23,713 bases of DNA from the IMG/VR virus record IMGVR_UViG_3300010885_002093, positions 1 through 23,713 of that record, one strand, 5' to 3'. The stretch comes from a virus. The position numbers were made by a program, and so were the translations under genes. Positions 960 to 23,234 of the stretch are shown one piece after another (the first letter of the stretch is position 1; each line of letters opens with the position of its first letter). A model generated the notes under the pieces. The model did not search any database. It was not told the origin of the DNA and worked only from the letters and a program-made list of their open reading frames with translations.

Positions 960-1150
960 ATGAGCGTACACAAATGGCAGCAATGGTTTTCCAAGGAATC
1001 TGTGCAGGTGATTGGAAGTTTCAATTAGGCGAAGGACAGTTTTGGGATGATGTCGCAGTATTCCGAGCTGTTGAATTAGCAGATAAATTATTAAAACAAT
1101 TGGATGTAATAACAGACGTAGTAGTAACTGAGGAGGAATCAAATGATTAA
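956..1150 (+). CDS. Small conserved phage protein, unknown function
   Basis: A 64-residue protein whose ATG overlaps the helicase stop (ATGA), so it is probably translated by coupling. The C-terminal half contains a helical stretch, AVELADKLLKQL, which resembles the 'A-x-x-x-A-D-x-L-[IL]-x-x-L' tail seen in many small phage proteins encoded near replication genes. No catalytic motif, cysteine pattern or membrane segment is visible. Its last codons overlap the next gene by 8 bases. The position points to an accessory role in early infection, but that is inference only. Confidence 0.75.
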   Translation: MNERTQMAAMVFQGICAGDWKFQLGEGQFWDDVAVFRAVELADKLLKQLDVITDVVVTEEESND

Positions 1151-1448
1151 GAATATTATTATTGTGGTACTAGTGTTGTATATGTTTTTTAGTGGTAATT
1201 GTAGTGCTCAGGCTCTTTTTGAAGATAGTCCCTATAATTTTAAAAATAGTGAATACAACTTTGACAACAGTCAATATAACTTTAAAAATAGTCCGTACAA
1301 TTACAACAACAGTCAATACAACATGACTGCCCCGAATGGAGTCTATGACAACTATGGAAACAAAACCGGATATACCACCGTCAGCCCCACAGGAGTCGTC
1401 AACATCTATGACAACAACGGAAACAGAAAAAGTTTTATTCCACGATAG
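1143..1448 (+). CDS. Secreted protein with N-terminal signal peptide and tandem seven-residue repeats
   Basis: This 101-residue protein has a strong Shine-Dalgarno (GAGGAGG at about 1130-1136). Residues 4-17 are very hydrophobic and are followed by a polar region with small residues, SGNCSAQA, as in a signal peptide with cleavage after A22 or A24. C20 has N before it, so a lipobox is unlikely. Residues 29-63 are five tandem heptads of the form S-x-Y-N-[FY]-x-N, the last one degenerate. Residues 66-101 hold two imperfect copies of YDN-x-GN-[KR]. Proteins of this layout recur in aquatic phages without a known function, as far as I recall. Export to the periplasm or outer surface is inferred. 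It sits among replication genes, so it is probably made early and may alter the host envelope. Confidence 0.8.
   Translation: MIKNIIIVVLVLYMFFSGNCSAQALFEDSPYNFKNSEYNFDNSQYNFKNSPYNYNNSQYNMTAPNGVYDNYGNKTGYTTVSPTGVVNIYDNNGNRKSFIPR
1227..1331 (+). repeat. Five 21-bp units encoding S-x-Y-N-[FY]-x-N heptads
   Basis: Five in-frame 21-base units (1227, 1248, 1269, 1290 and 1311) lie inside the secreted-protein gene. The serine, tyrosine and asparagine codons are conserved, while the second and sixth positions vary (P/E/Q and K/D/N). The units differ at third codon positions, so the repeat is kept at protein level and is not a fresh DNA duplication. Confidence 0.85.
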
Positions 1449-9399: not shown

Positions 9400-11622
9400 T
9401 TACTCTTTACCTAAGATGTTCTTTAGGTATTTTCTAGTCTCACTTGGTATCTTTTCCATACCTTGTTTATCTACTCTACCGGGTCCCCAGTTGTAAGCCG
9501 CTAAAGCTAACTCTGGGTTGTTATTATACTTAGTTAAGAGTTGTTTCATGTATGTAATACCTGCTTTAATATTATCAGTAGGGTTGTATACATTTTTAAG
9601 ACCAAGTTCTTTAGCTGTTGATGGAATAATTTGCATTACACCACCAGCATTCTTATGTGAACGAGCATTGGGATTAAAAGAAGACTCTTGATATGCCTGA
9701 CGTACAAATAAGTCTGAGAATGCCCCTAAACCTTGTCTATCGGCTTCTAAACGCACTTGTTGTGCAATAGGATGTTCTGGGTCAAACTTGCGTCCGCCAA
9801 CGACTGTAGAAGCTAATTTCGGATATGCTTCTTGTAAATTACCAGAAAAAGGCAATGCTTTAGACTGTGGTTGTTGTACTGGCGTTTGTTGTGAAGGAAC
9901 GGCTGGAGCAGGAGCCGGAGCAGACATTTGATTCTGAACATTTCCTGACAGATTACCCAATAAGCCGGGATTGTCTTGAATAGCTTTTTGTACAGCGATA
10001 CGAGTAGCGCCCGGATCTTGCATTAATTTCTTAGCAACACCATAACTGAGACCAGAAGCTGTCAATAAAGGAAGTGCAATCGTTGGTGAAAATAAACCTA
10101 AAGCACCTAAACCACTTAACTTACCAGCAATCATTAATGAACGGAATTTCTGAGCTTCTTGTGTAGTATCACCAACTACATTTAGAGCTTTATTAGCCTC
10201 AGCTTGTAATGGTGCAACACCTTTAGCAGCTTCAAACTCGCCACCTTGTTTAGCAGCTATTTTAGCCATCTCAGCAGGACTAAACGTACCTTGAGTTCCA
10301 GCAATTTCAGCAGCATTCTTATTAACTGCTTCCATGAACCGTGCTTGTTTCATCCAACCAAGATTTGCTGCAGCAACATCGCCTGTAGCGTCGTTACGAG
10401 CAATAAAACCTTTAATGGCTTTGTAAGCATCGTCATAACCAGCTTTAAGTGTCTCGGCTGGTGTATCAACTGCTTTAATAGAATCAATTTTAGTTCTAAA
10501 AATTTCTTCTATTTTCTTTAAATCTTTTCCTGTAAGTTCACCATCTTTCATTCTGCTGGTAACATTAGCTTTAATAAAGTTATTAAACATTGCTGCTTGT
10601 TTTGGCTCTAAAGAATCAGCAATTGCTGTTTTAGCTACAGTTAGGGCATCATCAAAAATAGGGTCAACTTTAACAGTGCCAATTTTATCTAAAGCATCAT
10701 CATAAGATTTATTTAAAGCTTTGTTAATATATGCAAATGCTTGTTGTCCGTTTTGAACAGTATCAGGAACTGTTTGATTTATACTAGACAATACGTCATT
10801 ACCAACAGCTTTTGTGTATCCTAGATTAATAGCGTCTTTATTGACACGCATTCCGGGTAAGTCCAATTTTTCAATTTGACGATAAAGCATACCGGGGATG
10901 CCTTCGTAGGCTTGTCCGGGGGTAACTGGAATACCTTTATCCATTAGTTCACGAGTACCAGCCTTGAGAGTCGGTGTCAGTGCATTCGCAAATGCAGCAC
11001 CAACACGTCCAACAACTGCCCCAAGACCCATCTGTTCAATTTTACCTTTAAGGACATCTTCTCCTGAAAGGTTTTCACCTGTAACAGGATTTAATGCAGC
11101 GCCAATTGCACCACCAAGAGCGCCTCGTGAAGCAATACTTCCAACAGGTCCTGTGACGGGTAAAAACTTATTTACAGGACTAACTAGAGCACCGCCTAAT
11201 TCAGCAAAATCAAAACCAGTTGCTCCTGCATTCTTACGTTGTGTTTCGTATGCTTGTTGTGTTGCCTGAGCAAAATCTCTTCCTGTTTGTCCACCAACAA
11301 CTTGAGCGACAGCCGATACTGGATTGATAACAGCACCTTTAGCTAAACCAGCACCAACTTGTACTGCTCTGTTTACGCCTTCTCCTACTGCTTTCATAGT
11401 AGGACCTTGCTCTGTTTTTTGCTCGGCTCCTAGATATGCAAAAGGATTATTAGGATCCATAACATCAGAACCTGCTGGTGCGGCTGGTCCTGTATACGCT
11501 GGAAGTTTTTCTTTCGGTGCTATATGTTTTGCATACATTGCCGATATTTGTTGTTTTGTAGTGCCTTCAGGTACATCTTGAATCAAAGTACCGTCTGGCA
11601 TTTCCACATCAAATGTAGCCAT
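9400..11622 (-). CDS. Internal virion (ejection) protein with C-terminal lytic transglycosylase domain
   Basis: This 740-residue protein is probably packaged in the head and injected with the DNA, cutting peptidoglycan so the genome can pass. The last 110 residues are an SLT lysozyme-like domain: catalytic E646 in YQESSFNP, then GGVMQIIPSTAKELGL, NPTDNIKAGITYM and LALAAYNWGPGRV. The N-terminus (MATFDVEMPDGTLIQDVPEG) is a small strand-rich start common in such proteins. The middle is Ala/Gly-rich and helical, with a hydrophobic segment at about 496-530 that could insert in the membrane, then a Pro/Gln linker (about 565-587). T7 gp16 carries its SLT domain at the N-terminus, so domain order is reversed here. 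It is the last gene of the late block. Confidence 0.9.
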   Translation of the reverse strand: MATFDVEMPDGTLIQDVPEGTTKQQISAMYAKHIAPKEKLPAYTGPAAPAGSDVMDPNNPFAYLGAEQKTEQGPTMKAVGEGVNRAVQVGAGLAKGAVINPVSAVAQVVGGQTGRDFAQATQQAYETQRKNAGATGFDFAELGGALVSPVNKFLPVTGPVGSIASRGALGGAIGAALNPVTGENLSGEDVLKGKIEQMGLGAVVGRVGAAFANALTPTLKAGTRELMDKGIPVTPGQAYEGIPGMLYRQIEKLDLPGMRVNKDAINLGYTKAVGNDVLSSINQTVPDTVQNGQQAFAYINKALNKSYDDALDKIGTVKVDPIFDDALTVAKTAIADSLEPKQAAMFNNFIKANVTSRMKDGELTGKDLKKIEEIFRTKIDSIKAVDTPAETLKAGYDDAYKAIKGFIARNDATGDVAAANLGWMKQARFMEAVNKNAAEIAGTQGTFSPAEMAKIAAKQGGEFEAAKGVAPLQAEANKALNVVGDTTQEAQKFRSLMIAGKLSGLGALGLFSPTIALPLLTASGLSYGVAKKLMQDPGATRIAVQKAIQDNPGLLGNLSGNVQNQMSAPAPAPAVPSQQTPVQQPQSKALPFSGNLQEAYPKLASTVVGGRKFDPEHPIAQQVRLEADRQGLGAFSDLFVRQAYQESSFNPNARSHKNAGGVMQIIPSTAKELGLKNVYNPTDNIKAGITYMKQLLTKYNNNPELALAAYNWGPGRVDKQGMEKIPSETRKYLKNILGKE

Positions 11623-12713
11623 TATTTCATGTCCCCGAATTTAACTACTTTTCTGGTTGCTTGTTCAGCAGGTGTTGTTGCTGGTGCTGTAGGTGCTCCA
11701 GTGCCAGTCTCTGATGGATTATAAGTACCTCTAGCTTTTTGGTCTAATTTAATAAAGTATTTATTAATGGTATCTAATTTCTCATTGAATTTCTCAGGAC
11801 TTAATTTCATTTGATCCAAATCTGCAATATTCTGTTTAATTACTTCTAATTCTTTCATGTTCAAAGCACCAAAACCAGTTGCTCCAGTTTTGCTTTGAGC
11901 CTTTGCAGCAGCCATCACAGACATAGTTAATTTAGATTGTAGTTCTTTTAAATCACTCGCTAAAGCAGCAGCATCTGTCATAGGTACTTTAGCCAATGTT
12001 CCACCTACTGCACCAACTGTATACGGATTTACTTGCTTTCTAATTTTAGCAACATAATCTGTTCCCTCTATTGCACTACCAATTAATTCATTAGCAACAT
12101 CAGTATTAACTTTATCAGCAGCTTCTTGCTTTAGTGCTATTTTATCTGCCGCTGCTAAAGAACGTGTTAATGCTGCCCCTTGAGCGTCGGGACCGCCAAA
12201 TTTACGGTAAACAGAAAGATATTGTTCATCTGAAGCATTTTCAGGTAGTGCGTCTAAAGCATCACGAAGTTTTTTATCTTGTGCAAGTTTGTACTGTGAA
12301 GACTCTAATGATGCTTGTTGAGTTTTCATTGTCAAACCTTGCGCTTGCATTGTTTGTGCTTTAGATTGCATATCTTGAACTTTAGCCATCGCCATCTGAG
12401 CTAAGTCAGGAGCACCGTTTTGTGCTAATGCTTGGGCATACTGAGCTAAACCTTCAGGAGTAGTAGTTTCAAATTGAGAAGCTAACTGTTGTGCCATTTG
12501 AGCTTTTTGTAACTCAGGATCTTGTATGCCCAATAAAGGAGCCATTACTTGAGAACCAAAAGCACGACCACCTTGACGTAAAGCTAAATTAGCTTGCTGG
12601 CGAGGATCTAAACGAACTGCTTGTAAGTCTTGTGAGTAACCTGTAGCAGCACGTTCTTGCTGAATCTGCTGTGCTGTTGGTCCAAAAAGACCTTGTACTA
12701 TGCTGTCTGCCAT
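11622..12713 (-). CDS. Putative internal virion protein, Gln/Ala-rich
   Basis: A 363-residue helical protein lying between two putative ejection proteins and sharing their composition. The N-terminal 70 residues are rich in Q, A and R (PTAQQIQQERAATGYSQD, then LDPRQQANLALRQGGRAFG). A long helix follows with few breaks (about 75-150), and the C-terminal part has TGATGFGALNMKELEVIK and a LSPEKFNEKLDTI helix, segments common in podovirus internal proteins. The end is a Thr/Pro/Ala tail. It is likely a counterpart of T7 gp15, inferred from position and composition, not from a motif. AAGGA lies seven bases before the ATG, and the stop overlaps the next ATG as TAATG. Confidence 0.7.
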   Translation of the reverse strand: MADSIVQGLFGPTAQQIQQERAATGYSQDLQAVRLDPRQQANLALRQGGRAFGSQVMAPLLGIQDPELQKAQMAQQLASQFETTTPEGLAQYAQALAQNGAPDLAQMAMAKVQDMQSKAQTMQAQGLTMKTQQASLESSQYKLAQDKKLRDALDALPENASDEQYLSVYRKFGGPDAQGAALTRSLAAADKIALKQEAADKVNTDVANELIGSAIEGTDYVAKIRKQVNPYTVGAVGGTLAKVPMTDAAALASDLKELQSKLTMSVMAAAKAQSKTGATGFGALNMKELEVIKQNIADLDQMKLSPEKFNEKLDTINKYFIKLDQKARGTYNPSETGTGAPTAPATTPAEQATRKVVKFGDMK

Positions 12714-12722
12714 GATTTTTCC

Positions 12723-14201
12723 TTAATCCACACCTGTTGAACTTGTTGGAACAGTGCCTTGTCCGCCGTAGCCATATACATTGCTAGGACCTGCTGTAAT
12801 ATTAGCTAAAAATCCATTAAACCAAGGCATAACAGCATTAGCACCGCCTTGTCCAGCCATTTGTCCACCAGCACCAGATAAGAACTGACCAAGGTTACTA
12901 GTAGCTGATGCGCCGTATGAATACGGAGCTGCTTGAGTCTGTCCCTGCATTTGCATTTGACCCGCAGTTTGATTAGCTCCTTGAATAGAAGTTCCCATAT
13001 TCTGACTTAAATTATAAGCGCCTTGTCCCATGTTTTGCATGGTATTTGCTTGACCCAGATAATTACCAAGTGTATTCAATGCAGCATTCTGTAATTGATA
13101 TTTACCCATTTCTTGACTAATAGCATTAGAACCAAGCTGTGAAGAAGTACTTAATAAGTTAGCACCCGTATTCAACGATTGATTACCAACACCAACCATG
13201 TTAGCTGCTGTCTGATACTGGTTTGCACCAACATTAAACAACTGACCACCAACGCCTTGAATATTAGCTCCTGTACCAGCAACACCTGCAGCTTGACTCT
13301 GTAACTGACCACCTTGACCGTACAGATTAGCACCAAGAGCAACATTAGTACGTCCTTCAGCTTGTGCTTTAGTAGCCATGTCAAGATTACGTTGTCCTAA
13401 CGAATTATAATAAGCAGCTAATTCTGGATTAGAAGCAAGCATTCCAGTTGTTGTTCCGCCTGTAGCTAAACCAGCTCTACCAGTAGAGTATACTTGATTT
13501 CTTAATCGTGCTAAAGTTTGTTCGTCACCACCAGCTAAAGCAGCTTGTGTACGAGCCATGTAGTCTGCTTCGGCTTGTGGCGCTGAACCTAAGTAGCTTG
13601 CACCTGTGTTGTACAAGTCTTGAGCATTAGCAAACATTCCCGGAGCTTGTGCTGTAACAGCTTCGCCTTGACGGAATAAAGCATTACCTTGATTAAAGGC
13701 AGTTTGTCCTTGTGGGTATAAATCTTTAGACTGAGCATATAATTGATTACCAGCATTAAACGCATTAGGCGCTTGAGCCATCGCCATTTGCATACCAGCT
13801 AATGAGTTCTGACGAACACCATTAATAAAACCTACATCTGGTTGATAGTTATAATTTGCAGCAGCATTCATTAGTCCTGTTTGCATTCCTTGCAATTGAG
13901 GACTTAATGTATAACCAGCCGATGTCATCTGACCCGTAGTTGGATCGTAAACATAGTTAGACGTACCAAAATTGGTAGTCATTCCAAATGGTTTAAATTG
14001 TGCGTTTGCAGCAGCTTGGTTTGCTGTATTACGATAAGCAGTAGCTTGCTGGTTAGCGGCGTTATTAGCCGCACTGCCTGAAAGAGCACCGCCTAAAGTA
14101 CTTCCAAGTTGTGATCCTACCATTGCCCCTACTGGACCGCCAAAGATTCCTCCTGCAACGGCTCCACCAGCGCCTAAAACTGAACTAGCTAAATTACCCA
14201 T
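12723..14201 (-). CDS. Putative internal virion protein with glycine zipper and heptad arrays
   Basis: A 492-residue protein, very rich in G, A, Q and N. Residues 9-42 are a glycine-zipper-like hydrophobic stretch (GAGGAVAGGIFGGPVGAMVG and on), which could insert in a membrane. Residues 142-204 are nine successive seven-residue units and 281-357 eleven more, mostly of the form x-x-[GA]-x-x-[LAM]-[YFL]. Between them lies a segment with LARLRNQVYSTGRAGLATGG and NPELAAYYNS, which is like a conserved core of podovirus structural proteins. Position beside two other ejection-type genes suggests a part of the injected channel, a role similar to T7 gp14/gp15; this is inference. AGGAG precedes the ATG by six bases. 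Confidence 0.7.
   Translation of the reverse strand: MGNLASSVLGAGGAVAGGIFGGPVGAMVGSQLGSTLGGALSGSAANNAANQQATAYRNTANQAAANAQFKPFGMTTNFGTSNYVYDPTTGQMTSAGYTLSPQLQGMQTGLMNAAANYNYQPDVGFINGVRQNSLAGMQMAMAQAPNAFNAGNQLYAQSKDLYPQGQTAFNQGNALFRQGEAVTAQAPGMFANAQDLYNTGASYLGSAPQAEADYMARTQAALAGGDEQTLARLRNQVYSTGRAGLATGGTTTGMLASNPELAAYYNSLGQRNLDMATKAQAEGRTNVALGANLYGQGGQLQSQAAGVAGTGANIQGVGGQLFNVGANQYQTAANMVGVGNQSLNTGANLLSTSSQLGSNAISQEMGKYQLQNAALNTLGNYLGQANTMQNMGQGAYNLSQNMGTSIQGANQTAGQMQMQGQTQAAPYSYGASATSNLGQFLSGAGGQMAGQGGANAVMPWFNGFLANITAGPSNVYGYGGQGTVPTSSTGVD
13131..13361 (-). repeat. Second heptad array in the internal virion protein (residues 281-357)
   Basis: Eleven seven-residue units, for example ALGANLY, GQGGQLQ, GTGANIQ, GVGGQLF, NVGANQY and NTGANLL. 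Position 3 is nearly always G or A, and positions 6-7 are usually hydrophobic or Gln. Phase is kept without a break until about residue 350. Confidence 0.75.
13590..13778 (-). repeat. First heptad array in the internal virion protein (residues 142-204)
   Basis: Nine seven-residue units: AQAPNAF, NAGNQLY, AQSKDLY, PQGQTAF, NQGNALF, RQGEAVT, AQAPGMF, ANAQDLY and NTGASYL. Position 3 is G, A or S and position 7 is mostly F or Y. It is out of phase with the second array, so the two are separate blocks. Confidence 0.75.
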
Positions 14202-14503
14202 TATAAACTCCTGCTAAAAATGTTGTATGTTTTACCGTCTTTTCCAGTTGTAGTATCAACATGGGTAAAATTAATTGTTTGTCCAAATTTTTTCAATTTA
14301 TTATTCTCTTGTTCTACAGCAGCCATTAGTGGAACACCTGTTAAATATTGTAATAAGTTTAAATCTTCTAGATACTTAGTTTTTATTTCTTTAGTCCAAC
14401 GTGCTATATCTGTATGAAACCAAAGCATCTGATTAAAGTCTTCTAAGTACATTACATAGTCTGGTCGAATAACAACAGGTACTTTTGTGCTTAGTGTTTC
14501 CAT
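14201..14503 (-). CDS. Hypothetical protein between tail fibre and internal virion genes
   Basis: A 100-residue protein joined to both neighbours by TAATG overlaps. It has an aromatic N-terminal half (VMYLEDFNQMLWFHTDI) and a C-terminal half with a Lys/Thr-rich turn and HVDTTTGKDGKTYNIF, which looks like a strand pair. No signal peptide, membrane segment or catalytic motif is visible. The context (tail fibre on one side, ejection proteins on the other) suggests a virion part or assembly factor, for example an enzyme-like domain that modifies or folds a tail protein, but I cannot identify the family. Confidence 0.65.
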   Translation of the reverse strand: METLSTKVPVVIRPDYVMYLEDFNQMLWFHTDIARWTKEIKTKYLEDLNLLQYLTGVPLMAAVEQENNKLKKFGQTINFTHVDTTTGKDGKTYNIFSRSL

Positions 14504-15903
14504 TAAGCAGTATAAGTACCAGACGCAGTAAATGTAATGCGTGTATTAGCACCAGAAGTAGTTATTGTAGGTGAACCAGTTACTGTTCCTGTGTAGTTTA
14601 CAGTTGGCATCGACATAATGACTACACCAGAACCACCAGCGCCACCAGTACCACCAGTATTTGGAGAAGAACCACCTCCGCCTCCACCGCCGCCACGGTT
14701 AGCAGTACCTGCTGTACCCGGACTACCGTTTGCACCCGGAGAACCACCACCCCCGCCACCAGTGCCGCCAGTACCGCCACCGCCTGTACCGCCACCACCG
14801 CCACTAGTTGGGGAAGCATCACCACCGCCGCCACCGCCACCAGCATAGTAAACAGAATTAACAGACCACAATACACCAATTCCGCCAGTACCGCCGTTAA
14901 CAGGACCGCCTCCGCCTACTCCAGCACCAGCGCCACCTGCGCCACCGCCGCCACCACCGGGACCAACATACGTTGCGCCGCCAGCACTATTAAAGCCACC
15001 TGTACCGCCAGCGTTACCTTGACCTGAAGTACCAGCACCTCCAGATAATGGAGCAAAACCAACAATACCGTTTGCGCCGCCACCTGAACCACCAGTACCG
15101 CTACCGCCTTGACCGCCACCAGTAGTTGTAGCTAATGTGGTAGTTGGGGAAGTTAACGAACTAGTTGAACCAGCTCCAGAACCTGCTCCACCTGCACCAA
15201 TGACTGCTGTGTAAACTGTGCCAGCAACAAGAGTTGTTGAAGAATAAAGTAAACCACCTGCGCCGCCACCGCCGCCACCGTTTGTTGCACCACCGCCGCC
15301 ACCAGCTACAACAATAAAGTCAGCAGTATAATTACCTAATGGGCTAACACTAAAGCGAACCCAAGCACCATTAACATAGCCTTCGTAATTATCTGATTCA
15401 GAATTGTAACGCATTATACCTTCTGCAGGACTAGCAGGACGCTGTACAGTACTTCCTATAGGTAATTGAAAGTAACCAGTAGCAGTATTAAGCTCATCTG
15501 AAACCATCGCTGGAGTAGGGTCTCCAACAGGAACCCACACAGTACCATTCCAATTTTCTAACAGATTAATTGTAGTGTTATAACGAGTTAAACCAACAAC
15601 AGGAGAAGCTGGTCGTTGTGCTGTTGTTCCTTTTGCAATAACAAGACCACCTGTGCCAGTCATTACAATGTTAGCGTTAGCTGTTACTTCGCCAACTAAA
15701 GTAGAAACGGTGTTAGCAAACAACCCATCAGTAGTTACTAGACCAGAAAACACTGGATTTAATAAGTCAGCTTTTGATGTTACTGACGACGCAATAGCTG
15801 TAAACTCAGTATCGATCTCAGTACCTTTAACAATCTTTGAAGGATTGCCACTCGGAAGTGTATCTTTTGTTGCAAAGTTAGTTGATTTTATATAATCAGA
15901 CAT
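14503..15903 (-). CDS. Tail fibre protein with glycine-rich receptor-binding domain
   Basis: A 466-residue fibre. The N-terminus (MSDYIKSTNFATKDTLPSGN, then KGTEIDTEFTAIASSVTSKAD) is the usual attachment region of podovirus fibres. Two copies of a motif, QRPASP...G...RYN...E...NG-x-WV, lie at residues about 96-126 and 154-184. Residues about 194-425 are a glycine-rich domain starting ADFIVVAGGGGGA and dominated by runs of G with S, T and N, followed by GSGVVIMSMPTV and a final module (about 440-466) that also ends the 577-residue adhesin. Such domains occur in many aquatic phage tail proteins; a sandwich of polyglycine II helices that binds the host, as in the S16 adhesin, is an inference. 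TAGGAT precedes the ATG. Confidence 0.9.
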   Translation of the reverse strand: MSDYIKSTNFATKDTLPSGNPSKIVKGTEIDTEFTAIASSVTSKADLLNPVFSGLVTTDGLFANTVSTLVGEVTANANIVMTGTGGLVIAKGTTAQRPASPVVGLTRYNTTINLLENWNGTVWVPVGDPTPAMVSDELNTATGYFQLPIGSTVQRPASPAEGIMRYNSESDNYEGYVNGAWVRFSVSPLGNYTADFIVVAGGGGGATNGGGGGGAGGLLYSSTTLVAGTVYTAVIGAGGAGSGAGSTSSLTSPTTTLATTTGGGQGGSGTGGSGGGANGIVGFAPLSGGAGTSGQGNAGGTGGFNSAGGATYVGPGGGGGGAGGAGAGVGGGGPVNGGTGGIGVLWSVNSVYYAGGGGGGGDASPTSGGGGGTGGGGTGGTGGGGGGSPGANGSPGTAGTANRGGGGGGGGSSPNTGGTGGAGGSGVVIMSMPTVNYTGTVTGSPTITTSGANTRITFTASGTYTA

Positions 15904-15911
15904 AATTAATC

Positions 15912-17714
15912 CTATCTATTTTTACCAAGTTTTAAGGATATATCGATTTTTTGAATCGAGATCGGATACCCGTTTATACCGCACTCAAAACCGAGTTGAA
16001 CAACTTTACCAGTTCCAGTTGCATTAAATTGAACAGCATCAAGAGAAATACCATTACTATATTCAGCAATTCCGTATTCTCCAATTCCATACTCATAAAC
16101 ACCTGTAGAGTTTAAAGCAATAACTCCACTTTCATAGTTATCTGTGAAATCAAAGCCCCACTTAACTGAGATGTTTTGTCCACGTCCGCCAATAACAACA
16201 ACATTTACTCGTTTAAGTATTTTCAATGTTGTTGGTTGATCCATGTCAAAATAGTTAGTATAGTAACTAAACCGATACGAATCTGTGCTATCTAAATATT
16301 CATTGTATAAGCCAAGATAGCCAGCTTTACCAATATACAAATCACGACCTGCTGTACTACAGAAAGCAGTAGGGTTGATGTTTTGCCAAATTGTTGTTCG
16401 TGATGCTCCATTTTCTAACACGCCACGAGTATCAAAACAATAGGTATAACCAACAACAGGAAAAGACAATAAATAAAACGCATCTGTAGGATAATAAACA
16501 GCTTTAATATTATCTAAGTTTTCTTTTTTCAAGTTAAAAATTAAGTCATCACGGACATTCTTAGATATATCTCTAAAAGGCATTGATTTTTCTTGAATCA
16601 AACGCTGTAAAGACTGTACACCTGTTTCCGATAAGAATAAAATATCAGTACCAGCTACAGAAGCCACAGAGTCACGAGCAATACAACCAGTACCTTTAAT
16701 AATGTCTTGTACTGTTAATTGTGTTGTATCTTGTGGATTTGCATACAAAACAATGTGACGCTTACAGAAAACAATTAGAAATCCATTATGGGACGCAAGT
16801 GCTACGATACCATCACCTGTTGGAATAACTGTGCTAATATCTAAATAGCCAGATGTTCCTACTTGCCACTCATTAGGATTTTGTAAATCACTAAAGTAAA
16901 TCGTTTGGTCATTATCACCAATACCAGCAACCCAGATTCTTCCATAAGCGGCTAAAGCACAATTAGGTTGAAATGTAGTTATATCATATTCAAGCGGTAA
17001 GTTACCAAAATCACCTAAACGTTGAAATCCGTAACCACCTTCATGTGCGTGTGTTGATGAACTTAATTTGTGATACATTAATACTGGATTGTTCTTTTGT
17101 ACAAGCACTGCATGAGACGAAGCCGTTGGACCCGTGCCATATGGTAAAGAAGCTATTTGCCAGTTGTTTCCAGAAATGAATGCTGGTAATATATTTATAA
17201 CATCTGTCGTTCCAGAAGTTGTTCTCGAAACAGTTGATGTTACAGTAAATGTGTTTGTTGTAACTGCTGTTATTGTATAGATACCTGAAGTAGCTAAACC
17301 ATCAATAATAGTTAAATAAATACTTTGACTATATGTATAAGGATGCGCCGTAACAGTAACAGTAATAGTTGTCCCTGTTTGTGAATATGCTTTTGCAGAA
17401 TAAAAGGTAGTACCGTGAACGGAACGCTCGGCTAAGGTTGTTGTACCTGTATACAGTTTATTGTTAGCAGCACTGATAAACTGAGTTCCATCATTCTTAA
17501 CAAATTCAAAAATAGTTCTAAAACTGCCTGTAGACGCAGCAGTTGTGTTTAATTTTGTCCATCCTTTACGAGCACCAATACGACCATATTTATCAATAAC
17601 ACAGTTATACGCTTCACGAGCATATCCACTCGTAAGCTGCACTGAGGAGTCTTGGATGTTTAATCCAGAGAAACCCGGAGCTTGTAACGACCCAGTTAAT
17701 AGTTGTTCAGCCAT
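15912..17714 (-). CDS. Tail tubular protein B-like (nozzle) protein
   Basis: A 600-residue beta-rich protein of the type that forms the tail nozzle in T7-like phages (T7 gp12, 794). The N-terminus is typical: LLTGSLQAPGFSGLNIQDS followed by REAYNCVIDKYGRIGARKGW. Later segments fit a propeller-like body: GRIWVAGIGDNDQTIYFSD, SHNGFLIVFCKRHIVLY, GTDILFLSETGVQSLQR and AVYYPTDAFYLLSFPV. Residues about 115-165 (TITVTVTAHPY to NTFTVTST) look like an inserted Thr/Val-rich Ig-like module. It directly follows the gp11-like gene (TAATG overlap), the same order as in T7. Assignment rests on order and pattern. Confidence 0.82.
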   Translation of the reverse strand: MAEQLLTGSLQAPGFSGLNIQDSSVQLTSGYAREAYNCVIDKYGRIGARKGWTKLNTTAASTGSFRTIFEFVKNDGTQFISAANNKLYTGTTTLAERSVHGTTFYSAKAYSQTGTTITVTVTAHPYTYSQSIYLTIIDGLATSGIYTITAVTTNTFTVTSTVSRTTSGTTDVINILPAFISGNNWQIASLPYGTGPTASSHAVLVQKNNPVLMYHKLSSSTHAHEGGYGFQRLGDFGNLPLEYDITTFQPNCALAAYGRIWVAGIGDNDQTIYFSDLQNPNEWQVGTSGYLDISTVIPTGDGIVALASHNGFLIVFCKRHIVLYANPQDTTQLTVQDIIKGTGCIARDSVASVAGTDILFLSETGVQSLQRLIQEKSMPFRDISKNVRDDLIFNLKKENLDNIKAVYYPTDAFYLLSFPVVGYTYCFDTRGVLENGASRTTIWQNINPTAFCSTAGRDLYIGKAGYLGLYNEYLDSTDSYRFSYYTNYFDMDQPTTLKILKRVNVVVIGGRGQNISVKWGFDFTDNYESGVIALNSTGVYEYGIGEYGIAEYSNGISLDAVQFNATGTGKVVQLGFECGINGYPISIQKIDISLKLGKNR

Positions 17715-18367
17715 TAAACGTCAATCCAAGCAGCTTCTTCTAAATAACGACCAGATTCTAAAGCAATTGCGTCGCTTAAAGACTGAAGATATAAAGCATA
17801 CATTTCACTTGAGAGCATAGCGTTGTCTTCGCCTCGCTCCGCCATTCCACGAGCAACTGCTCCTAAAATAACAGGCTCTGCTGGGACCAATAAAACATCT
17901 GAACTATTGCTTAATGCTGCTTGTGGATTAATAAGGTTAAATCTAATGCTGTAGGCTTTATCAGGTATTGGATAAATATCTACTTGAGTATCACCATTAC
18001 TGTTAGTACCATTAAAGTTATAAAACTGAGGTTGTCCGTACTGAGACGGATTCATCAAAAATAACTCATTCATCTTTGATGTGGTTTGTGGCTGTAAAGC
18101 ATTATCGCTAGTATCGTCAAGTACATCAATTACACGAAAGCGTTGACCAGACCCTGCTAATACATAGTTGAATAAACTAGGAGTTGTATCGGCTGTAATA
18201 GTCGTGCTTAATGCGTTCCAATTGTAAGCGTCTTCTACCTGACGTTTAGAATCGTTAACATATTCACAAATTAGTTTAGAATAGATGTTATCTGTTACCG
18301 AGGTGACTTCACGTTCTCGAAGTCTCCTAAGCACAGAATTAACAAGCTGCAAGTATGTATAAGACAT
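17714..18367 (-). CDS. Tail tubular protein A-like (head-tail gatekeeper) protein
   Basis: This 217-residue protein probably caps the portal and links head to tail, like T7 gp11 (196) and P22 gp4. The start TYLQLVNSVLRRLREREV and the segment ICEYVNDSKRQVEDAYNWNAL are hallmarks of this group. Then come strands (FRVIDVLDD), a long linker and a C-terminal helical part (VILGAVARGMAERGEDNAML, then QSLSDAIALES). It is the first gene after a strong promoter, with AAGGAC (18371-18376) before the ATG, and it is coupled to the tail tubular protein B gene by TAATG. The late tail and ejection genes therefore share one transcript. Confidence 0.87.
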   Translation of the reverse strand: MSYTYLQLVNSVLRRLREREVTSVTDNIYSKLICEYVNDSKRQVEDAYNWNALSTTITADTTPSLFNYVLAGSGQRFRVIDVLDDTSDNALQPQTTSKMNELFLMNPSQYGQPQFYNFNGTNSNGDTQVDIYPIPDKAYSIRFNLINPQAALSNSSDVLLVPAEPVILGAVARGMAERGEDNAMLSSEMYALYLQSLSDAIALESGRYLEEAAWIDV

Positions 18368-18422: not shown

Positions 18423-18920
18423 TTATTTAGTATTTGCTGATTTAAGCGCTTCTATTTGAGCGGCTACTTCCCTGTATTTTCCGTGGTTTTCAATTGTGGT
18501 GGTGAGTACGGTAGCAAGGTCAACGGGGGAGCTGAGGTTATCAGTATTTGCGGGATTTGTGGTTTCACCTGTGGCAGAGGCGTTGTACAGCCTAATAAAA
18601 CCGTAAGAGACAGGACTGCCGAACTTAGCATTCCAAGCATCAATATCCTTTGTATACGCAGCGCCACGAACTTGTTTTTGATAGCCAACATTTTTTACTT
18701 GCTCCTTCTTTACCTGTTGAAAATAGTCAGACGCAGCAAGGTCATATTTAGCCTTATCTTGCGCCAAAGCTTCTTGATAAGCTTCTTTGTCTTTTGCAAT
18801 CTTTGCTTCATAATAGTTCTTTTCGTATTTGTGACCAGCATAAACACCTCCACCAAAAGCTACTGCTATTGCCAAACCAATGGCAATTAACGAATTAAAC
18901 CCACTTAATAACCAACCCAT
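18423..18920 (-). CDS. Rz: Rz-like inner-membrane spanin (i-spanin)
   Basis: A 165-residue protein that, with Rz1, would fuse inner and outer membranes at the end of lysis. Residues about 8-30 (FNSLIAIGLAIAVAFGGG) are a single N-terminal transmembrane anchor. Residues about 31-90 are a charged, heptad-rich periplasmic coiled coil (KYEKNYYEAKIAKDKEAYQE, then ALAQDKAKYD). The C-terminal part is globular and shares its DNA with Rz1. A strong AGGAGG lies five bases before the ATG. It directly follows the lysozyme gene, the classical order. Pairing with the embedded Rz1 supports the call more than sequence identity does. Confidence 0.88.
   Translation of the reverse strand: MGWLLSGFNSLIAIGLAIAVAFGGGVYAGHKYEKNYYEAKIAKDKEAYQEALAQDKAKYDLAASDYFQQVKKEQVKNVGYQKQVRGAAYTKDIDAWNAKFGSPVSYGFIRLYNASATGETTNPANTDNLSSPVDLATVLTTTIENHGKYREVAAQIEALKSANTK
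18464..18640 (-). CDS. Rz1: Rz1-like outer-membrane lipoprotein (o-spanin), embedded in Rz
   Basis: A 58-residue lipoprotein read in another frame wholly inside Rz. The start at 18640 is preferred over an in-frame ATG at 18691, because AAAGGA lies five bases before it and the protein then begins directly with a signal peptide (MLGMLSSAVLSLTVLLGC). The lipobox VLLG-C18 predicts acylation of C18, leaving a 41-residue mature chain rich in proline (TTPLPQVKPQIPQI and more), the hallmark of Rz1. It would sit in the outer membrane inner leaflet and meet Rz across the periplasm. Complete nesting inside Rz is the arrangement of lambda. Confidence 0.88.
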   Translation of the reverse strand: MLGMLSSAVLSLTVLLGCTTPLPQVKPQIPQILITSAPPLTLLPYSPPQLKTTENTGK

Positions 18921-21500: not shown

Positions 21501-23234
21501 TTAAGCCGTATAGCTTCCACTTGAGTTAAATGTAATTATAGTATTTGAACCGTTTGTTGTGATAGTTGGTGAGCCTGTTGTTGTTCCTGTATAACTTGCA
21601 GTAGGCACAGAAATGACAATAACTCCTGAACCTCCTGTACCCCCAGTACTACTATTTCCACCTGATCCGCCGCCACCAGTATTGGTAGTTCCGTTATTTC
21701 CAGCTCCAGTTGAATTTCCTGATGCACCCCCACCTACGCCACCTGAACCAGCAGGTTCGCTAGTGTCAAAACGACCACCACCGCCACCACCGCCACCAAC
21801 ATAATAAGTGCCACTAGAAAGCTGTCCAGAAGTTGAGCCAGTAATAGAATTTGCTATGCCTGCGCCACCATTTCCTGCTGGACCAGTATTTGCATTTCCG
21901 CCATTACCGCCCACTGCACCTGCACCACCGCCGCCAGCATCAGGACAATAACCTGCGCCAGATGGACCACCTGCGTTACCACCAGCGTTTCCTTGTCCTG
22001 CAGTTCCTGCTCCGCCTACGCCACCAGCCGAATTTCCCCAACCAGCACCACCACCTGAACCACCAGCAACACCGCTATTTGCACCACCACTACCAAAACC
22101 ACCACCACCGCCGCCTACTGCCGCAGTAAGACCAGTAATAGTTGAGTTTGTGCCGTTTGTTCCTACATTTGTAGCTCCACCAGCACCTCCGCCACCAACG
22201 GTTACAGTATAAGTTGTGCCGCTTGCAAAATTAGTTGTGCCTGAAACAACGCCACCTGCGCCACCACCGCCACCGCCATTATTTCCTTTACCGCCACCGC
22301 CAGCACCAGCAACAATTAAATAACTAGCTGAATAACCTTTAAATAAACTACCCGAACTAGTAAATTTGTGAATTGTTTTTCCACCAGATGAAGTTATTGT
22401 ACCACCAATAAATTGTTGTGAACCAGTATAAGAAATAATAACTACGCCTGAACCACCACTACCATTAGCAGGGGCAGGAGTACCCGTATAAACACAAGCC
22501 CCACCGCCGCCACCACCCGTATTAGCTGTTCCGCTAGAACCAGCCGTATCATAACTTGCTCCTGAAGCACCGCCGCCTCCCAATCCTCCTGATACAGAAC
22601 CAGAACCACCGCCGCCTGTACCGCCAGCACCACCGCCAGCATAGTAAGTTGCAGTCCCTGTTATAGAAGACTGAAGTCCTATACCACCTGCACCGCCAAT
22701 GCCGTTTGTGGGCCAAGTGCCTGAAGAATTTGCACCAACGCCTCCTGCACCACCGCCACCAGCAGTAGCACCAGAACCATAAGGAGTTCCGCCTAGTGAA
22801 ACACCAGCATTATTACCTTGCCCTGCAGTTCCAAGCCCCCCTGCCACATTTGTTGATTGGTTATAACCAACTGAAGAACTACCACCAGAACCACCAGTTG
22901 CGCCTTGAGTTCCGGGATTTGAATTAAAGCCGCTATGTCCACCACCAATTGCTGTTACCGTAGTTAAACCAGTTCCACTAAAGACAGAATCGCTACCATT
23001 TGTTGAATTTCCGCCATATGTTGCTCCTGAACCTCCACCACCTACTGTAATTGTATAAGTTACAGTGCCAAGCAAGGTTGCTGTGCTTTCCAAATATCCA
23101 CCAGCACCACCAGCAGCCATAGTTGCTCCACCACCGCCAGCTACAACTAAATAACTAGCGGAAACGCCAGAACTACCAGAAGTCCAACCAAAAGCCGCTA
23201 AGGAAGCTGCACCAATTTTGGATAGTCTAGGCAT
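21501..23234 (-). CDS. Glycine-rich tail adhesin with two tandem modules
   Basis: A 577-residue protein of low charge, about a third or more glycine. It has a short N-terminal region (MPRLSKIGAASLAAFGW), then two tandem modules of about 275 residues: residues 25-299 start SASYLVVAGGGGA and residues 301-577 start YSASYLIVAGAGG. Both go on with TYT-[IV]-TVGGGG, repeated GG-x-GG runs, GTAGQGN, YYAGGGAGG or YYVGGGGGG, GSGV-[IV]-[IV]-IS, and a final short module around a TSSGS or NSSGS strand. This is a repeated glycine-rich domain as in tail proteins of aquatic phages, probably receptor-binding. It follows the partial fibre gene by a TAATG overlap. Confidence 0.88.
   Translation of the reverse strand: MPRLSKIGAASLAAFGWTSGSSGVSASYLVVAGGGGATMAAGGAGGYLESTATLLGTVTYTITVGGGGSGATYGGNSTNGSDSVFSGTGLTTVTAIGGGHSGFNSNPGTQGATGGSGGSSSVGYNQSTNVAGGLGTAGQGNNAGVSLGGTPYGSGATAGGGGAGGVGANSSGTWPTNGIGGAGGIGLQSSITGTATYYAGGGAGGTGGGGSGSVSGGLGGGGASGASYDTAGSSGTANTGGGGGGACVYTGTPAPANGSGGSGVVIISYTGSQQFIGGTITSSGGKTIHKFTSSGSLFKGYSASYLIVAGAGGGGKGNNGGGGGGAGGVVSGTTNFASGTTYTVTVGGGGAGGATNVGTNGTNSTITGLTAAVGGGGGGFGSGGANSGVAGGSGGGAGWGNSAGGVGGAGTAGQGNAGGNAGGPSGAGYCPDAGGGGAGAVGGNGGNANTGPAGNGGAGIANSITGSTSGQLSSGTYYVGGGGGGGGRFDTSEPAGSGGVGGGASGNSTGAGNNGTTNTGGGGSGGNSSTGGTGGSGVIVISVPTASYTGTTTGSPTITTNGSNTIITFNSSGSYTA
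21504..22334 (-). repeat. Second glycine-rich module of the 577-residue adhesin (residues 301-577)
   Basis: Starts SASYLIVAGAGG and ends with GSPTITTNGSNTII and SSGSYTA. The final 50 or so residues are closely similar to the end of the 466-residue tail fibre at 14506, and the whole aligns with the first module of the same protein. Confidence 0.8.
22338..23162 (-). repeat. First glycine-rich module of the 577-residue adhesin (residues 25-299)
   Basis: Starts SASYLVVAGGGGA and ends GSGVVIISYTGSQQF, then HKFTSSGSLF. It has nearly the same length as the second module and the same order of landmarks, so it arose by duplication. Confidence 0.8.

Follow-up and report, generated by a model that had tools for sequence, protein, structure and literature searches.

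Organization of the locus

The window, a 23.7-kb virus contig, carries on its minus strand and in this order genes for an adaptor, a head closure protein (Hc3), a Gly-rich fibre, a 100-residue orphan and proteins of 492, 363 and 740 residues (Table 1). This is the order of P22 genes 10-26-14-7-20-16. Three adjacent ejection genes follow the connector genes, as in the 7-20-16 cassette of P22-type phages, and the third encodes a peptidoglycan-cutting domain, as in many such cassettes. The 363-residue protein can be linked to P22 gp20 only through a bridging family: the gp20-family protein of Vibrio phage PVA1 (phrog_2534, 4e-84) also matches phrog_25769 (3e-5), and direct comparison of the 363-residue protein with PVA1 by BLASTP gave no significant match. 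From its slot, the 492-residue protein therefore occupies the position of the first, usually smallest, ejection protein; that it is longer than the 363-residue protein, unlike in the usual small-first order, is due to the arms described below. Among the loci of its family with sufficient room, a gp20-like gene lies directly downstream in 74 of 89, Hc3 upstream in 81 of 85 and the adaptor upstream in 36 of 39. The proposal of the first-pass annotation that this is an ejection protein is thus borne out by gene order and neighbours, and the protein very probably represents the smallest ejection protein of a P22-type podovirus cassette. Immediately upstream of the ejection gene, the gene-14 slot holds small proteins that are unrelated to one another: the 100-residue orphan in the window, a cupin-like protein matching short-tail-fibre PHROGs in L002 (L002:5598-5996) and a GNAT acetyltransferase in L004 (L004:4511-4978).

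Table 1. Features of the ejection-gene region, in window coordinates; residue numbers refer to the 492-residue protein.
Feature	Position	Strand	Basis
SU10/P22 gp4-type adaptor	17714-18367	minus	Pfam SU10_adaptor 5e-12
P22 gp10-like head closure protein (Hc3)	15912-17714	minus	phrog_578 7e-11
100-aa orphan, P22 gene 14 slot	14201-14503	minus	Position; no PHROG/Pfam family match
Probable ejection protein, 492 aa, gp7/gp14 slot	12723-14201	minus	ORF; 97-member alignable family
N-terminal Gly/Ala-rich segment, residues 9-41	14079-14177	minus	Sequence; low-confidence, unstructured in model
Conserved beta-hairpin domain, residues 79-99, within FxPxGxTT.FGTSNY...SAGYTLSP	13905-13967	minus	Family alignment and model
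Array 1, nine heptads, residues 142-204, inside predicted ascending arm helix 123-239	13590-13778	minus	Model and phase test
Conserved core without heptad phase, residues 205-266; motifs GR.GLATG and NPE.AAYYN	13404-13589	minus	Invariant alignment columns
Predicted tip loop, residues 240-258, between the two arm helices	13428-13484	minus	AlphaFold model
Array 2, twelve heptads, residues 267-350, inside predicted descending arm helix 259-372	13152-13403	minus	Model and phase test
Second ejection protein, 363 aa, P22 gp20-like via bridge phrog_25769	11622-12713	minus	phrog_25769 1e-17
Third ejection protein (gp16 slot), 740 aa, with an SLT transglycosylase domain at the C-terminus	9400-11622	minus	Pfam SLT 9.8e-26; PHROG internal virion protein with endolysin domain 7e-23

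Two heptad arrays in the 492-residue protein

The first-pass annotation had singled out positions 13131-13778 (minus strand), which correspond to residues 142-357 of the 492-residue ORF, and had described there two unbroken and strict seven-residue arrays of nine and eleven units, a conserved core between them and a glycine zipper ahead of them. Both arrays were recovered, the second with twelve units, the eleven counted previously being residues 274-350; the core and the Gly-rich N-terminus (residues 9-41) are likewise real, the latter as a possible membrane-inserting glycine zipper. The units of array 1 are AQAPNAF, NAGNQLY, AQSKDLY, PQGQTAF, NQGNALF, RQGEAVT, AQAPGMF, ANAQDLY and NTGASYL. 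Their positions 6 and 7 hold all 15 large hydrophobic residues of the array, with none elsewhere, and position 3 is Gly or Ala in eight of the nine. In array 2 position 3 is Gly or Ala in 12 of 12 units, and large hydrophobic residues are found at position 6 in seven, at position 7 in eight and at position 2 in six of them. The word strict is therefore apt for array 1, but in array 2 the full motif is loose and only the Gly/Ala position is strict.

When heptad phase was assessed with composition-preserving shuffles (floor 0.0002), large hydrophobic, small and polar residues were all biased in both arrays (p ≤ 0.0004), these values being indicative because the segments were picked after inspection. 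By the same shuffles the core (p 0.54-0.91) and residues 100-141 (p 0.56-1.0) are without heptad phase, and residues 351-432 show a weak polar bias alone (p 0.03). The stripe of hydrophobic and small residues is spaced i, i+3, i+4, i+7, which suits alpha helices; counting against helical arms, Asn/Gly-rich heptads have a modest helix propensity. Asn and Gln make up about 25% of array residues. A tandem-repeat search detected no repeat at the DNA level at either array, and the heptad units are therefore old and diverged. The first-pass annotation had also drawn a parallel to a secreted early protein at position 1143. The gene there (1143-1448, plus strand) encodes a small protein with a signal-like start, whose NSxYNF heptads stem from a recent 21/42-bp DNA tandem repeat; since the motif differs and the repeat exists in the DNA itself, the parallel carries little meaning.

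A family from uncultured podoviruses

Used as a query, the 492-residue protein found only three viral relatives. The family was reached through a neighbouring gene, which led to locus L004, where the slot is taken by a 330-residue protein that has the beta-hairpin domain and the core in common with the 492-residue protein, and almost none of the arrays. A scan with the L004 protein gave 215 relatives, of which 80 were kept, and a scan with that of L075 gave 128 matches, of which 80 were kept, overlapping the L004 set. The family lies in uncultured podovirus contigs; complete ORFs span 306-766 residues, and 97 relatives were aligned for the measurement of arm lengths. Ahead of the conserved domain lies a leader of variable length (37 to 466 residues) that is mostly Gly/Ala-rich (e.g. 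L041, L046, L082), with a 25-residue stretch of at least 12 Gly, Ala or Ser in 96 of 97 relatives.

The family is without a Pfam or PHROG model, and the 492-residue protein had no PHROG match; a resemblance to Pfam C19orf12 (0.0006, below its cut-off) is that of a Gly-rich membrane segment and was rejected. No relative was found by tblastn in 50,697 phage records, the named phages, with the 492-residue protein or its counterparts from L004, L075 and L045, nor in the bacterial genomes scanned, which hence gave no prophage or host clue. Profile searches of solved structures returned only a designed repeat protein (E 0.19). In the PDB, Foldseek matched only generic long helices, those of chemoreceptors, SMC arms and alpha pore-forming toxins, and these hits were set aside; against viral models it found a single close copy, of the same length and 91% identical, and other phage proteins without a name.

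One member, at L113:4001-5533, is a long-armed relative of independent origin (see below), a putative ejection protein with a C-terminal Peptidase_S74 chaperone domain. This domain usually occurs on tail fibres. It is the only part through which L113 matched the 50,697 phage records, and without it no PHROG match was obtained. The S74 domain is also present on annotated ejection proteins of phage 7-11 (phrog_4287) and Vibrio phage PVA1 (phrog_598).

Arm lengths change in pairs

For arm 1 the end points were the conserved Pro that follows the beta hairpin and the Pro that precedes the core; arm 2 was measured from the NPE motif to a conserved Glu. The lengths fall into discrete pairs: (35,54) in 41 of the 97 proteins, (43-44,61) in five, (47-49,68) in 46, (103,126) in L113, and (107,131) in the window protein, L002 and L163. 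The sole exception is L039 (51,54), in which arm 1 has gained 16 residues and arm 2 is unchanged; the extra stretch of this protein (L039:4948-6159) repeats a YLG motif. The first-pass annotation had asked whether unit number varies and whether phase is kept in homologues. Unit number does vary, and in both arrays together, and phase is not random: from the short to the middle classes arm 2 differs by exact multiples of seven (54, 61, 68), and in the longest it reaches 131, or 54 + 77, L113 excepted (126 = 54 + 72), while arm 1 grows by similar amounts. Across relatives the two lengths are correlated with a coefficient of 0.99, a value inflated by relatedness. Between the arms, the distance from the second anchor Pro to the tip Gly is a constant 33-34 residues in 97 of 97 relatives. 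A hairpin of two helices that turns at the core would be expected to show just this, both arms growing while the core between them stays constant.

A tree was built from the constant parts only; on it, class changes affecting both arms number six, and one change, that of L039, affects arm 1 alone. For the longest class the tree shows at least two origins, on branches with good support: L113 lies apart from the window clade as sister of the middle-length L104. Relative to L104 its arms 1 and 2 are longer by 54 and 58 residues, and its inserted sequence is unlike that of the window clade. In an independent-pairs test every pair differing in both traits goes in the same direction, the pairs being too few for significance. 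From these comparisons it looks as if both arms gain or lose heptads at the same time, so that arm length would be adjustable. No trade-off between arm length and the length of the tunnel protein is visible across loci.

Predicted structure

AlphaFold2 models were produced for the window protein, with 78 family rows, and for the protein of L090, which has middle-length arms. That of the window protein contains a helix (residues 37-66), the beta hairpin, an arm helix (123-239) that is interrupted near 185 and 206, the tip loop, a second arm helix (259-372) and further helices; that of L090 shows the same order of helix, beta hairpin, arm helix, tip loop and arm helix. Long helices, as the first-pass annotation had expected, are thus contained in both models. 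For the window protein the pLDDT is 75-89 over most of the arms and about 86-90 in the beta-hairpin strands (79-85 and 92-99). The pTM is low (0.31 for the window protein, 0.34 for L090), so that arm-arm packing is of low confidence in both models. The two arrays look like the paired arms of one long hairpin of helices. At 1.5 Å per residue, about 115 residues of arm helix would measure about 17 nm.

Comparison with known systems

The closest functional parallel may be T7 gp14 (internal virion protein B), which like the 492-residue protein takes the slot of the smallest ejection gene just upstream of the tunnel protein. After ejection six copies of gp14, each with two antiparallel helices joined by a short loop, line the channel in the nozzle and outer membrane, and in the head, before rearrangement, gp14 has five helices (PMC11784390); it forms an outer-membrane pore (PMC8954989). 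A helix-loop-helix is predicted here as well and the arm lengths are paired, with packing of low confidence. The size range of gp14-like proteins, 181-240 residues (PMC8954989), is not that of the window family, which runs from 306 to 766 residues, and hhalign gave a probability of 0.03% against a single gp14 sequence. We know of no report of heptad arrays or a beta-hairpin domain in T7 gp14.

P22 gp7 and Sf6 gp11 (phrog_598) occupy the same slot, between connector genes and gp20-/gp16-type genes, and have Gly-rich ends; unlike the window protein, gp7 has 229 residues and is without heptad arrays. Homology to gp7 was considered and found no support, as hhalign probabilities of 21-26% were off-register and not above the control, a reversed gp7 profile reaching up to 18% against the tip. 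Because sequence matching to gp14 and gp7 failed, as did the gp14 size range, the protein was classed as one working like gp14/gp7 in this slot, not as a member of either family.

The S74-tailed ejection proteins (phage 7-11 gp20, phrog_4287; Rhizobium phage RHph_N2, phrog_6121) have a similar gene neighbourhood and share S74 with L113; unlike in the window family, no heptad arms were seen in them. In the RHph_N2 family LSPE..., LAP... and the tip Gly align in order with the window family (18% probability vs 0.2% for the reversed control), which is too low for homology; a remote link between the two groups is hinted at by this weak in-register match and by the S74 domain of L113.

Other tube- or channel-forming proteins offer likeness of form. 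The tube of phiX174 protein H, 121 residues and 170 Å long, is amide-lined (PMC7354561). It resembles the proposed assembly of arms in being a helical DNA-conducting tube with heptads and an amide-rich inner face, and its length is near that of an arm helix here (117 residues, ~17 nm); it differs in having a single helix per subunit in a decamer and in belonging to a ssDNA phage, and we claim no homology. Pore formation has been demonstrated for the outer-membrane channel proteins DEV gp73 and N4 gp52 (PMC10925440, PMC12633501). These too are small partners of a tunnel protein, but come from schitoviruses and have one long channel helix.

Proposed role of the arms

Ejection proteins are among the least understood parts of phages. 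The account that we favour, and hold to be probable as a whole, is that of a P22-type ejection protein which forms an antiparallel heptad hairpin with the core at its tip and contributes to an envelope-crossing DNA channel. The protein would be the smallest of three ejection proteins stored in the head, would be released first and would help to build the channel. One array would ascend and the other descend within a single long antiparallel hairpin of helices that turns at the core GR.GLATG...NPE.AAYYN. In each heptad the small residue at position 3 and the hydrophobic residues at positions 6 and 7 would form one stripe along which the helices pack, and the face left over would be rich in Asn and Gln and mostly without charge. 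Placed next to one another, several such hairpins could make a helical tube, the Gly-rich N-terminus may insert in the outer membrane as T7 gp14 does, and arm length would be adjusted by adding or removing heptads in both arms jointly. Hairpin packing, oligomerization, the channel, DNA passage and insertion at the outer membrane are what we infer. A further proposal, which we regard as rather doubtful, is that the channel hairpins are tuned by paired heptads so that channel length matches the host envelope, arms of ~17 nm reaching from the tail through the outer membrane and much of the periplasm.

The paired lengths themselves could be an accident of shared ancestry, a few old changes having been inherited widely with no structural coupling. 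Six or seven length changes indeed suffice on the tree, and the independent-pairs test had too few pairs for significance. We nevertheless consider this improbable, as the sisters L104 and L113 differ in both arms by nearly equal amounts through an insert unlike the window clade's, and as joint changes outnumber single-arm ones by six to one (L039). We consider it very improbable that the protein is tail-fibre-like and that its arrays form a beta solenoid or a trimeric beta-roll, each rung being seven residues long as in the heads of YadA-type proteins. The Asn/Gly-rich heptads and the tail-fibre chaperone domain of L113 would fit it, but the i, i+3, i+4, i+7 spacing and the helices predicted at pLDDT ~75-89 do not, S74 is found on the annotated ejection proteins named above, and the gene occupies an ejection-protein slot.

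Two further readings keep the helices and the ejection protein. Contacts between the arms might form across subunits, either in dimers or with arm 1 of each copy against arm 2 of its neighbour; length pairing alone fits intra-chain and inter-chain contacts equally and pTM is low, yet the 19-residue tip loop makes a turn within the chain easy and T7 gp14 pairs within its chain, and so we regard this arrangement as unlikely. Alternatively, the arms might act in the stored state, wrapping the portal barrel or connecting it with the other ejection proteins in the head, with a length that tracks the portal barrel instead of the envelope. Precedents exist in mature T7, where gp14 helices wrap the portal barrel and bridge to gp15 (PMC11784390), and in DEV, where gp72 forms a ring around the portal (PMC10925440); the window itself contains no portal gene. 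Since T7 gp14 has five helices in the head and becomes a two-helix hairpin once ejected, and the hairpin state explains paired growth more simply, we give a stored-state role only a small chance of being correct.

For proteins without a solved relative, the paired lengths provide evidence of a hairpin that comes from sequence and does not depend on structure prediction. The outer-membrane member of ejection systems has been described as nearly constant in size, whereas the putative hairpin here comes in discrete paired lengths. The large uncultured family offers a natural length series in which channel length could be compared with host envelope thickness, portal or tail.

Other genes in the window

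Two separate Gly-rich fibre-like proteins (14503-15903 and 21501-23234, minus strand) both match phrog_2295. An Rz-like i-spanin gene (18423-18920, minus strand) adjoins that of a phage lysozyme (18922-19383), and nested in it is a proline-rich ORF of 75 residues (18464-18691, minus strand) with an LGC lipobox, like an embedded Rz1 o-spanin.
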